Source: Bradyrhizobiaceae bacterium (GTDB lineage Bacteria > Pseudomonadota > Alphaproteobacteria > Rhizobiales > Xanthobacteraceae). From it: a stretch of DNA of 64,000 nucleotides. The notes under the pieces are model-generated. The model was not told where the DNA came from and searched no databases. It saw only the letters and a list, made by a program, of their open reading frames with translations. The position numbers and the translations under genes are program-made. Location: the NCBI GenBank assembly GCA_020544565.1, contig CP078014.1:3970016-4034015 (forward strand), in the 5' to 3' direction. The number at the start of each line of letters is the position of its first letter. Positions within the stretch are counted from its first letter, which is position 1. Positions 34,174 through 52,858 of this stretch are shown here, one piece after another.

Positions 34174-34941
34174 TCAGATCTCGCTGGTCGGCGCGCGGGC
34201 GGCGGCGGGCTTGTCCTTGGAGCCGACGATCTCGGTCAGCTTGATGCGATCGAACTCGCCCCACACATTGCCGAGCCAGTGGCGGACATAGCCGCGCAGC
34301 ACGAATGAATAGTTGGCCGGCTCGTCCTTCGGGCCCTTGTTGGCGACGAATTTCAGGAACGGCACCGACGCCACCTCGACCTGCTCGTAGGCCATCTCGT
34401 TGAGCTTGGGGATGGTGAGTTCGGTCGCGTTCTTGATGCGGTGGAAATAGGAATTGTAGGTCGCCTGGTCCCACTCGAAGAAGCTCGTATTGTTGATGAA
34501 GTTCTTCACCAGGAAATATTTCGCGCCGTCCATGAAGTTGGCGGTCTCGGCGATTTCATCGAGCGAGGCGATGGACGGGCCGAGGATGTGGAATACGGCG
34601 AAGGTGATCTGTCCCGAGCGCGCGGCGTCGAGGAAGCCGATGTCGCGCAGCGCGGCGAGCGTCGGCGACAACAGGCCCGCGCGCACGTCGATCACGGTGA
34701 CGCTGGTTCCCGCCGTGTTCAGCGTGTCGAAGATCTTCATCTGGTCGGCCGTGGAGGTCACGTCCACGATCTCGGTGATGTCGGGATGGAAGCGCTTCAG
34801 CGTGCCGCGCGGCGCTTCGGTGTCGAAGGCGCGGGTGGGCACGTTGTTGGCGCTGAAATAGTCGAGAACGGTGCGCGACACCGTGGTCTTGCCGACCCCG
34901 CCCTTGTCCGCGCCCACTACGATCACTGCCGGTTTCGCCAT
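34174..34941 (-). CDS. ParA/MinD-like ATPase with deviant Walker A (first of a pair)
   Basis: 255 aa from ATG 34941 (MAKPAVIVVGADKGGVGKTT). The deviant Walker A KGGVGKT occupies residues 13-19. Further ParA-type elements are TRAFDTEAPRGTLKRFHPD and SVTVIDVRAGLLSPTLAAL, but the switch Asp region reads VIDVRAG rather than the usual D-x-P/D-x-A. No parB, parS-like repeat or flagellar/chemotaxis gene adjoins. The family assignment is secure at the SIMIBI/ParA level only; cargo or polar-localisation roles are speculative. It is paired with the downstream altered-P-loop gene. Confidence 0.8.
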   Translation of the reverse strand: MAKPAVIVVGADKGGVGKTTVSRTVLDYFSANNVPTRAFDTEAPRGTLKRFHPDITEIVDVTSTADQMKIFDTLNTAGTSVTVIDVRAGLLSPTLAALRDIGFLDAARSGQITFAVFHILGPSIASLDEIAETANFMDGAKYFLVKNFINNTSFFEWDQATYNSYFHRIKNATELTIPKLNEMAYEQVEVASVPFLKFVANKGPKDEPANYSFVLRGYVRHWLGNVWGEFDRIKLTEIVGSKDKPAAARAPTSEI

Positions 34942-47464: not shown

Positions 47465-48615
<1,151 letters not shown>

Positions 48616-50022: not shown

Positions 50023-50041
50023 CAGAGAGGGATTGCATTCC

Positions 50042-50596
50042 ATGTCTTCGACCGGCGAGACCCGTGCTTTCATCCCGCTCAACATCGCGGTGCTGACGAT
50101 CTCCGACAGCCGCTCGCTGGCCGACGACAAGTCCGGCGCGACGCTGGCGGAGCGGCTCGCGGCGGCGGGGCACAAGCTGGCGGCGCGCGAGATCGTCACC
50201 GACGACGTCGAAAAAATTCAGGCGCAGTTGAAACGCTGGATCGCCGATCCGGGCGTCGATGTCATCATCACCACCGGCGGCACCGGCTTCACGGGCCGCG
50301 ACGTCACCCCGGAGGCGGTGGAGCCGTTGTTCGAGAAGCGTATGGAGGGGTTCTCGATCGCGTTCCACATGCTGAGCCACGCCAAGATTGGCATGTCCAC
50401 CATCCAGAGCCGCGCCACCGCCGGCGTTGCGGGGGCGACCTACATCTTCTGCCTGCCAGGCTCGCCTGGTGCCTGCCGCGACGGCTGGGACGGCATCCTT
50501 GCCCATCAGCTCGACTACCGGAGCAAGCCCTGCAACTTCGTCGAGATCATGCCCCGCCTCGACGAGCATCTGAAGCGCGACAAGGCCAAGGCGTAA
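50042..50596 (+). CDS. moaB: Molybdenum cofactor biosynthesis protein B
   Basis: 184 aa from ATG 50042 (a TTG three codons earlier is the alternative). MoCF-binding fold: FIPLNIAVLTISDSRSLADD at the start, VIITTGGTGFTGRDVTPEAV with the substrate-binding GGTG loop, and the conserved YIFCLPGSPGACRDGWDGIL stretch. MoaB-type proteins adenylylate molybdopterin. Other moa genes are not in the window. Confidence 0.93.
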   Translation: MSSTGETRAFIPLNIAVLTISDSRSLADDKSGATLAERLAAAGHKLAAREIVTDDVEKIQAQLKRWIADPGVDVIITTGGTGFTGRDVTPEAVEPLFEKRMEGFSIAFHMLSHAKIGMSTIQSRATAGVAGATYIFCLPGSPGACRDGWDGILAHQLDYRSKPCNFVEIMPRLDEHLKRDKAKA

Positions 50597-50678
50597 CCCG
50601 CCCCTCTCCTGTGCGCCGCCCGCAGGGCAGTCCTTAGAGGACAGGTCCAGCGACTAGGTCAGGGGATAGATCACCAAA

Positions 50679-50693
50679 GTTCTTGTTTTGTTC
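50679..50693 (+). promoter_or_regulatory. SOS (LexA) box
   Basis: GTTCTTGTTTTGTTC fits the alphaproteobacterial LexA operator GTTC-N7-GTTC exactly and lies 24 bases before the start of the radical SAM gene. A direct repeat of this form is specific to alphaproteobacterial LexA. The gene behind it belongs to a family related to DNA photoproduct repair, which strengthens the assignment. Confidence 0.8.
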
Positions 50694-50717
50694 TCTTTGC
50701 GTGGTAAGGTTCAGTCC

Positions 50718-51905
50718 ATGAGCCGAGCCTCCCATGTCTCCCTTGCATCCCATGCCCTCAGGCCGCCGCCGGTTGCCCCGCACCCGGAGACAGCCAGTGA
50801 CTCCGCCGGCGAGGCGGTCGGTTCCGGTTCTGAGGTCGCCGTCGACCGTGCCCGCCGCCGCGGCCGGGGTGCGGAATCCAACGCCAGCGGCCGCTATGAG
50901 GCCGAGGCGCGGGTCGCCTTCGACGACGGCTGGCACAGCCTCGAGGACCTGCCGCCGTTCAAGACCACGGTGGCGGTCGATACCGCGCGCAAGGTCATCA
51001 CCCGCAACGACTCGCCGGACATCGGCTTCGACCGCTCGATCAATCCCTATCGCGGCTGCGAGCACGGCTGCATCTACTGCTTTGCGCGGCCGACCCACGC
51101 TTTTCTCGGCCTGTCGCCGGGGCTCGATTTCGAAAGCCGGCTGTTCGCCAAGCCCGATGCGCCGGAGCTGCTGGAGAAGGAGCTGGCGGCGCCCGGCTAC
51201 GAGCCGCGCATGATCGCCATCGGCACCAACACCGATCCCTACCAGCCGATCGAGCGCGAGCACAAAATCATGCGCGGGATTCTCGAGGTGCTGGAGCGCG
51301 TCGGCCATCCGGTCGGCATCGTCACCAAATCGGCGCTGGTGGTGCGCGACATCGACATTCTGGCGCGGATGGCGAAGCGCCAGCTCGTCAAGGTCGCGCT
51401 CTCCGTCACCACTCTCGATCCGAAGCTGGCGCGGACCATGGAGCCGCGCGCCGCGACGCCGCCGAAGCGGCTGGAGGCGCTGCGCCTGCTGGCGGAGGCG
51501 GGAATCCCGACCACGGTGATGGTCGCGCCGGTGATCCCGGCGCTGAACGATTCCGAGATCGAGCGCATTCTCGACGCCGCCGCCCATGCCGGCGTCAAGG
51601 AAGCGAGCTATGTGCTGCTGCGGCTGCCGCTGGAGGTGCGCGACCTATTCCGCGAATGGCTGATGGCCAATTACCCGGACCGCTACCGCCATGTCTTCAC
51701 CCTGATCCGCGACATGCGTGGCGGTCGCGACTACGATTCGCAGTGGGGCACGCGGATGAAGGGCACCGGCCCGATGGCGTGGATGATCGGCCGCCGCTTC
51801 GAGATCGCCTGCGATAGGCTCGGCCTCAACAAGCGCCGCACCAAACTCACAACCAGCCATTTCGTCCGGCCCCGGCGCGTCAACGAGCAGCTGGATTTGT
51901 TTTAA
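50718..51905 (+). CDS. PA0069-family radical SAM protein (SplB-like)
   Basis: 395 aa from ATG 50718. After a ~60-residue Arg/Ala/Pro-rich N-terminus, the core has NPYRGCEHGCIYCFARPTHA with the cluster ligands C114-x3-C118-x2-C121, then IGTNTDPYQPIEREH and the VMVAPVIPALNDSEIERIL barrel strand; it ends VNEQLDLF. The family resembles spore photoproduct lyase, but its substrate is unproven. The SOS box immediately upstream indicates DNA-damage induction. The unit appears to be a single gene. Confidence 0.9.
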   Translation: MSRASHVSLASHALRPPPVAPHPETASDSAGEAVGSGSEVAVDRARRRGRGAESNASGRYEAEARVAFDDGWHSLEDLPPFKTTVAVDTARKVITRNDSPDIGFDRSINPYRGCEHGCIYCFARPTHAFLGLSPGLDFESRLFAKPDAPELLEKELAAPGYEPRMIAIGTNTDPYQPIEREHKIMRGILEVLERVGHPVGIVTKSALVVRDIDILARMAKRQLVKVALSVTTLDPKLARTMEPRAATPPKRLEALRLLAEAGIPTTVMVAPVIPALNDSEIERILDAAAHAGVKEASYVLLRLPLEVRDLFREWLMANYPDRYRHVFTLIRDMRGGRDYDSQWGTRMKGTGPMAWMIGRRFEIACDRLGLNKRRTKLTTSHFVRPRRVNEQLDLF

Positions 51906-51929
51906 GCGATCACTTGGAATTCAATTTCG

Positions 51930-52048
51930 CCGTGCCCGGGCTTGTCCCGGGCATCCACGCCTTCCTCGCGTGCGCCTACCAAGACGTGGAGGACCGGAAC
52001 AAAAGGGCGTTCACGCCCGTCTTCGACGGGCCATGCCCGGCCATGACG
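51930..52048 (+). repeat. Diverged family-A hairpin element, copy 5
   Basis: It starts CGTGCCCGGGCTTGTCCCGG with the same CATCCACG linker and contains AAGACGTGGA and CCATGCCCGGCCATGACGG. An extra hairpin (GGGCGTTCACGCCC) is inserted in the right half, and the pairing is less complete than in the other copies. It lies between the radical SAM gene and rnhB. Confidence 0.6.
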
Positions 52049-52129
52049 GAATTTTGTCGCCCCCTGAATAGCGGGCACGGCTGAAAATTACGACTTGCGA
52101 CGCCGTGGCTATGCCCACAGCATCGCGCC

Positions 52130-52858
52130 ATGATTCGAAAGCCCTCTCCAGTTCCATCTGTTGCCATGAAGGCTGCGCGCTCCGTCGCTGCGCCGAGCTT
52201 CCGCCGTGAGCGGGCGCTGCTGAAGCAGGGCGTGTGGCCGGTGGCGGGCTGCGACGAGGCCGGGCGCGGTCCGGTAGCGGGGCCGGTGGTGGCCGCCGCC
52301 GTCATCCTCGATCCGAAGCGGATCCCCAAGGGCATCGACGATTCCAAACGAATGACCCGGGACCGGCGCGAGGAGCTGTTCGAGGAAATCTGCGCCACCG
52401 CGCTGGTGGCAGTGGCGGCGGCGCCGCCGTCGCGAATCGAGCGCGACAACATCCTGCGCGCCTCGCTGTGGGCGCTGGCGCGCGCCGTCCGGGCGCTGCC
52501 GGAAGCGCCCCGGCATGTGTTCGTCGATGGCCGCGATCCCATCGACGCCGCCTGCGCCTGCGAGGCGGTGATCGGCGGCGATGGCGCGATCCTGTCGGTC
52601 GCCGCCGCCTCCATCGTCGCCAAGGTCGCGCGCGACCGGTTGATGTGCGCGCTCGCCCGCGAGCATCCTGGCTACGGCTTCGATACGCATATGGGTTACG
52701 GCGTGCCGGCTCATCTCGATGCGCTCGACCGGCTGGGGCCGACGGTCCATCACCGCCGTCTGTTCGCGCCGGTCGCGGCCGCCTGGCGCAAGCACGGCAG
52801 GGCGGAGGACGAAGACCGCGCCGATGTGACGCCGCAGCCCGTCGCCGCGCTGGCGTAA
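52130..52858 (+). CDS. rnhB: Ribonuclease HII
   Basis: 242 aa from ATG 52130; an ATG at 52166 is a reasonable alternative. The catalytic residues are in [20 protein letters not shown] (Asp-Glu) and [19 protein letters not shown], with a second Asp in [16 protein letters not shown] and the family motif [19 protein letters not shown]. It removes ribonucleotides from DNA:RNA hybrids. In many Rhizobiales rnhB directly neighbours ccrM; here three genes lie between them. Confidence 0.94.

Follow-up and report, generated by a model that had tools for sequence, protein, structure and literature searches.

A conserved LexA-type box ahead of a PA0069-family radical SAM gene in a Bradyrhizobiaceae bacterium

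The locus and its gene

The DNA considered here (the window) is a stretch of 64,000 nucleotides from the genome of a Bradyrhizobiaceae bacterium (contig CP078014.1). It contains a gene for a radical SAM protein of the PA0069 family, and a LexA (SOS) box lies directly ahead of this gene, with moaB and rnhB as the neighbouring genes (Table 1).

Table 1. Features at the locus (window positions) and genes next to other GTTC-N7-GTTC sites of the same genome (genome positions)
Feature	Position	Strand	Basis
moaB, upstream neighbour, not part of the SOS unit	50033..50596	+	TIGR02667, ORF; ends 82 bases before the box
LexA (SOS) box, GTTCTTGTTTTGTTC	50679..50693	+	sequence; 107 of 110 orthologues preceded by an exact box; conservation profile
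Possible -35 element TTGTTT inside the box	50683..50688	+	inferred; TTG at box positions 5-7 kept in most orthologues
Possible -10 element TAAGGT	50705..50710	+	inferred; 16 bases after TTGTTT; T/A preference +27 to +29 from box start
PA0069-family radical SAM protein, 395 aa	50718..51905	+	NF033668, PF04055; motif C114-x3-C118-x2-C121
rnhB (RNase HII), downstream neighbour	52130..52858	+	PF01351, NF000595; 224 bases after the stop
uvrA	1258137		site just upstream
radA	862544	opposite	site just upstream
YifB-type gene	3332144-3332158		site just upstream
UdgX-type uracil-DNA binding protein gene (L041)	G000:C1:1920376		TIGR03914, 311.1 bits; site ~140 bases upstream
Gene weakly like rmuC	2812163-2812177		44.3 bits against a cut-off of 810; site just upstream

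The assignment of the protein to its family is clear. It scores 579.3 bits with NF033668 against a cut-off of 360, covers positions 1-348 of the 348 of that model, and contains the PF04055 domain. The next-nearest NCBIfam model is NF038135, the Rv2578c family of radical SAM proteins, yet here the score of 229.5 bits falls below the cut-off of 430, and the protein is therefore not a member of that family. Among the named relatives (the best 80 of 591 found in the genome collection) the nearest is that of Afipia clevelandensis, which is 87% identical. An alignment of 186 rows was made from the window and the other loci, with the window's protein counted twice (as window and as L051). The CxxxCxxC motif formed by C114, C118 and C121 is present in all 186 rows, and the other invariant residues are Y120, H127, D137-F138-E139, T172-D173, Q176-P177, E242 and R244.

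The order moaB, PA0069-family gene, rnhB (window 50033-52858) recurs in Alphaproteobacteria (L081-L160), and within the flanks examined a match to moaB is found in 36 of the named loci (best 80 of 591 relatives). As moaB lies upstream on the same strand, no divergent gene is seen that would compete for the box. A further gene at 47465-48598 on the minus strand, whose product looks by eye like a CcrM-type DNA methylase, has a match in 15 of the 80 named loci, mostly downstream of rnhB.

Conservation of the box and its motif in other classes

The first-pass annotation had described an exact alphaproteobacterial LexA pattern 24 bases ahead of the gene, and both statements hold: GTTCTTGTTTTGTTC at 50679-50693 is an exact match to the direct repeat GTTC-N7-GTTC, and the ATG at 50718 stands 24 bases past the end of the box. 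In the parts of the articles available to us, this pattern is tabulated for the LexA of Caulobacter (PMC9578287) and given as the LexA pattern for Alphaproteobacteria (PMC8565304). A match of this kind, taken by itself and without conservation, is at chance level and is no evidence. The window has two matches where 1.45 are expected, and two or more matches occur in 48 of 100 shuffles of the window. In the whole genome there are 106 matches, compared with 63 for a control pattern that is the same repeat read backwards. The sole other exact match in the window, GTTCCCGCCGTGTTC at 34706-34720, is without a T-rich core and is probably a chance occurrence. These numbers, with one or two matches expected per 64 kb and 63 backwards-pattern sites in the genome, are what would speak for a reading in which the box is a chance match, or the site of another regulator, and the gene is constitutive. 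It is the position of the box, together with its conservation ahead of orthologues, that lifts it above chance.

A check of this conservation had been proposed along with the annotation, and it was run on several samples, whose members are partly related and perhaps partly of the same species, so that the counts are not to be read as independent events. Of 100 family genomes sampled, 96 have the gene. For 95 of these the DNA ahead of it was examined, and the exact box precedes the orthologue in 94; in G035 it has one mismatch. The remaining genome, G015, was left out: its matches are three and all partial, and two of them are cut at contig ends. The box is thus kept in close relatives, and the three other genomes of the same genus in the sample (L052, L053 and L054) have 15-mers identical to that of the window. 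The box is exact in 77 of the named alphaproteobacterial loci (best 80 of 591 relatives): it lies within 350 bases in 76 of them and at -358 in L103; the remaining three (L135, L138 and L146) have a box with one mismatch. When 30 family genomes, including that of the window, are taken together with the 80 named records, 107 of the 110 loci have the exact box upstream (106 within 350 bases, and L103 at -358). In other families of the same order 27 genomes have the gene, and of the 21 examined for the box 19 have it exactly and two (L189 and L190) with one mismatch. For other orders of the class the exact box is found in 34 of 36 genomes, again with one mismatch in the other two (L230 and L231). 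A second PA0069-family copy in G027 (G027:C1:1314128-1315213, 53% identical to the window's protein) has an exact box of its own in its upstream stretch (L368).

Outside the upstream stretch, the pattern was found seven times in 622,346 bases of the 110 loci; this count covers only the strand read, with 11 of the 110 loci then in the wrong orientation; the figure of 13 for the other strand includes true boxes and was therefore set aside. Over 139 distinct upstream stretches the consensus is GTTCTTGNWWTGTTC. The information is concentrated in the box and four or five T-rich bases on each side of it, and conservation drops within about five bases of the box ends; beyond that, a weaker preference for T/A is seen some 27-29 bases from where the box starts. 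One of the named records deserves a comment: L144 is titled Mycobacterium sp. KBS0706, and its gene is 60% identical, with an alphaproteobacterial box and with rnhB and the methylase as neighbours. The title is probably wrong.

A different picture emerges in 39 genomes from other classes of the phylum, all with a gene above the NF033668 cut-off. Here the palindrome CTGT-N8-ACAG, the box type of Gammaproteobacteria and Betaproteobacteria, occurs within 250 bases upstream in 28 of the 39 orthologues, and the reversed control TGTC-N8-GACA in none of them. The shorter pattern CTG-N10-CAG is found in 30 of the 39 loci, as against 7 for CTG-N9-CAG, 3 for CTG-N11-CAG, 2 for GTC-N10-GAC and 0 for GAC-N10-GTC. 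In the 11 orthologues without CTGT-N8-ACAG in these 250 bases, one (L195) bears TTAGTAATAATACTAA, which we take to fit the Xanthomonas-type LexA motif. The other ten have at least two mismatches to each of the three patterns tried, save for a one-mismatch GTTC-N7-GTTC in L220 that is taken as chance. With CTGT-N8-ACAG replacing GTTC-N7-GTTC in other classes, the regulation follows the gene while the LexA site itself changes. This motif switch between classes is the strongest argument for LexA control, which for the window's gene is very likely on this comparative evidence. The idea that the box is a chance match or another regulator's site becomes very improbable in its light: the box is kept across the class ahead of the orthologue and the farther flanks are not, and in other classes a different LexA-type palindrome takes its place. 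The chance match was accordingly rejected on conservation; the window count alone would not exclude it.

The neighbourhood can be read in another manner. If the partnership with rnhB were meaningful, the gene might encode an SOS-controlled enzyme that works together with RNase HII, its substrate being DNA that contains ribonucleotides or else something made by error-prone polymerases. It would fit that 54 of the 80 named loci (best 80 of 591 relatives, within the flanks examined) have rnhB downstream in the same orientation, and that its match starts within 150 bases of the stop in 12 of those 54. Against this, rnhB follows only after a 224-base gap in the window, where it is not clearly co-transcribed with the PA0069-family gene, and the gene order may simply be inherited. 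Moreover, a tblastn search with the window's proteins (E 1e-4) in 20 of the 39 other-class loci found rnhB in none of them within about 3 kb on each side, and the same is true of moaB and of the putative DNA methylase. We consider a joint role with RNase HII improbable. Neighbourhoods differ in the other classes; the damage box goes with the gene and not with its neighbourhood.

Promoter layout and the SOS set of the genome

LexA control of the gene would work in the usual manner. In an undamaged cell a LexA dimer would sit on the two GTTC half-sites and cover the promoter, probably including its -35 region. On DNA damage, RecA filaments would bring about the self-cleavage of LexA, and the gene would be turned on. 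Two features of the alignment bear on the promoter: the TTG kept at box positions 5-7, and the preference for T/A around +27 to +29. Together they suggest that a -35 element lies within the operator, with a T/A-rich -10 element near 50705-50710. A simple scan of 50560-50800 for the sigma-70 consensus gave no promoter-like site.

The distance from the box to the start of the gene is also informative. Of 141 loci, 84 have an in-frame ATG or GTG at a distance of 22-27 bases past the box, the commonest distances being 24 bases (44 loci) and 23 bases (30 loci). In 78 of these 84 loci no Shine-Dalgarno-like word stands in the expected place. From this spacing, and from the usual lack of such a word, we infer a leaderless or nearly leaderless message; in the window the mRNA is probably nearly leaderless, with the transcript starting at the ATG or a few bases before it. 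This layout is not general, because the start lies elsewhere in the remaining 57 of the 141 loci. Many rhizobial loci have it some 57-72 bases away from the box, and one set of loci belonging to other orders has it at a distance of only 11-16 bases.

Other genes of the genome are preceded by the same pattern. The profile match of lexA begins at 1328754 and has an exact site upstream at 1328590-1328604; that of recA begins at 464347, with a site upstream at 464168-464182. Each site lies on the opposite strand from the gene in question, and the recA site is also spanned by a long open frame of that strand, so that the two are assigned to lexA and recA by position only. Further examples are given in Table 1. 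They come from 20 genome regions with sites that were chosen mostly by their T-rich cores, which is not a census. Ten frames adjoining other sites were scanned, of which four had no NCBIfam match and one had a weak match to a hypothetical protein. At G000:C1:1356367-1356399 (L034) two exact copies of the pattern occur in opposite orientation and three bases apart, GTTCTTATTACGTTC on the minus strand and GTTCCTTTTTTGTTC on the plus strand.

Likeness to spore photoproduct lyase and links to known systems

The three cysteines C114, C118 and C121 would, as in radical SAM enzymes generally, bind a 4Fe-4S cluster, by which S-adenosylmethionine is cleaved to give a 5'-deoxyadenosyl radical. For what this radical may act on, the predicted structure gives a lead. 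An AlphaFold2 model built from 50 sequences has a mean pLDDT of 83.3, and the best solved folds for it are entries of spore photoproduct lyase (SPL; PDB 4fhc and 4fhf), with Z 18.9-19.6 over 266-274 residues (top match: Z 19.6, rmsd 3.4 over 266 residues). The next family by fold is NifB with Z 15.0, and in Foldseek the SPL entries take ranks 1 to 6. The residue before C121 is a conserved tyrosine, Y120, and the cluster motif with this tyrosine matches SPL-like proteins. In sequence the two are distant. With phmmer, the protein by itself found only two fibronectin sequences in the PDB (E 0.16 and 0.24), and a profile of 50 members found weak matches to SkfB, NifB and unrelated proteins and no SPL.

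Could the protein be a true SPL, made on demand after UV and reversing 5-thyminyl-5,6-dihydrothymine by the SPL mechanism? The lead of the SPL entries among structural matches and the shared cluster motif with Y120 would fit, as would weak matches to TIGR04070, the SPL model, at some genes of the family (at most 24.9 bits in stretches overlapping other PA0069-family genes, the best in G188). In the accessible text of the literature, splB is called a predicted photolyase (PMC3323433), and the wording 'SplB-like DNA repair photolyase' is found (PMC3925955). The residues and scores of the protein point the other way. The window's protein scores 13.5 bits with TIGR04070, where the cut-off is 400. 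The hydrogen-donor cysteine of SPL is C140. Its number is taken from the PDB titles (4fhc), and its counterpart in the window's protein would be T170, to judge by the strand and the T-D motif, or L142, which is the position chosen by three MAFFT modes. A cysteine is present at neither position in any of the 186 rows, and the commonest cysteine column outside the cluster has Cys in 82 of the 186. T170 is preferred over L142 as it agrees with the order of strand, helix and strand and with the T-D motif, the placement being by sequence. When three SPL-like proteins were brought in by profile comparison, the alignment was confined to residues 193-314 and so gives no placement for C140. SPL has Y98 just after its last cluster cysteine; among the 186 rows this position is taken by F in 139 and by Y in 47.

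The same order also has full-length relatives of SPL, encoded by genes of their own. Three of them in one genus (L269, L270 and L271) score 254-282 bits with TIGR04070, which is below its cut-off, and carry the C140-type cysteine. L269 matches 4fhc with E 2.6e-60 and shares with it the FEA-[AS]-C strand that holds C140. None of the three has GTTC-N7-GTTC within 400 bases, which is a further point against a true SPL at the window's locus. With a score this far below the cut-off and no cysteine to match C140, membership of the SPL family was rejected, and a true SPL at this locus is improbable. The first-pass annotation had pointed to relatives that repair spore photoproducts; SPL is the closest fold, but the protein falls far short of the SPL model and the C140 counterpart is absent. 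For the PA0069 family, the spore-photoproduct reading is an analogy, and a weak one.

The explanation that we prefer, with a probability of roughly 85%, is a working LexA operator that drives an SOS-induced radical SAM enzyme of the SPL-like fold, probably acting on a lesion in nucleic acid. The gene is probably an ordinary member of the SOS set, and its enzyme would act on some damaged nucleic acid by a route other than the known one of SPL; the lesion is probably not the spore photoproduct handled in the manner of SPL. Because of the fold and the regulation, radical action on damaged nucleic acid is the best guess, most likely as the reversal or editing of a lesion in DNA or linked to DNA. 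That the substrate is DNA is a guess from the regulation and the predicted fold, and likeness of fold is no proof of function. A wider claim stands nearer to an even bet, namely that the PA0069 family is a standing SOS member across Pseudomonadota, that its LexA motif has changed at least once (perhaps twice, if TTAGTAATAATACTAA of L195 is a LexA site), and that it does radical repair or editing of a damage-linked nucleotide. The mechanism would here be unlike that of SPL because the hydrogen-donor cysteine is missing.

Links between LexA and genes of this kind are known from several systems. Rv2578c, the namesake of the neighbouring family, is regulated by LexA, and it is reportedly included in a list of LexA targets of M. 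tuberculosis from 2002; a list for P. aeruginosa from 2006 is said to include PA0069. A limited literature search found nothing that links PA0069 to radical SAM or LexA, or Rv2578c to LexA or DNA damage. In a Pseudomonas aeruginosa study, as far as its text was checked, PA0069 figures only as a chromosomal tag site, and the Caulobacter text that was checked has no mention of splB or photolyase.

The closest precedent is from 2012, when predicted LexA sites were described ahead of 'splB' in alpha- and beta-Proteobacteria (PMC3323433, available in part). It presents the SOS regulation of splB in the two classes as a result. It concerns the same phylum, the same kind of gene and two classes with different LexA motifs, and the argument is the same. 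The available text gives neither locus tags nor sequences, so that to equate this splB with the PA0069 family is a step of ours. That work was based on fewer genomes; here the counts are larger and further families of the class are covered. In Streptomyces venezuelae, the radical SAM gene vnz_31145 has a LexA site by ChIP-seq and 19.97-fold induction by mitomycin C, and its product is said to resemble enzymes that repair thymine cross-links caused by UV (PMC9380542, in excerpt). Like the window's gene it combines radical SAM with a LexA link, but it is actinobacterial and has another LexA motif, and it is likened here by description. In the parts of the text at hand, a radical SAM protein is also listed in the core SOS set of Gram-positive bacteria and in Balneolaeota (PMC7739468), and a COG1533 SplB or radical SAM gene has LexA-motif sites in the regulons of Bacteroidetes, Balneolaeota and Gram-positive bacteria (PMC8565304, PMC7739468). 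These are other phyla with other motifs, again compared by description. The idea that LexA regulates radical SAM or splB genes is thus already known, and the site in the window is one more instance with stronger comparative support. Of the clue in the first-pass annotation, that the gene would be induced by DNA damage, the substance is strongly supported by conservation and the motif switch; its novelty is not, given the earlier reports (PMC3323433 and PMC9380542, as far as their available text goes).

For the PA0069 family, these comparisons point to a firm place in the DNA-damage response of a whole bacterial class, and its function becomes testable. A mutant would be expected to show a phenotype after some damaging agent, and the identity of that agent would be a pointer to the lesion. 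Calling such genes 'SplB' or 'photolyase' finds no support in the residues of the PA0069 family. It can be added that in one genome the full copy of the gene has a partial extra match to the PA0069 model on each side (G188:C1:77869-97961), as if from duplication.
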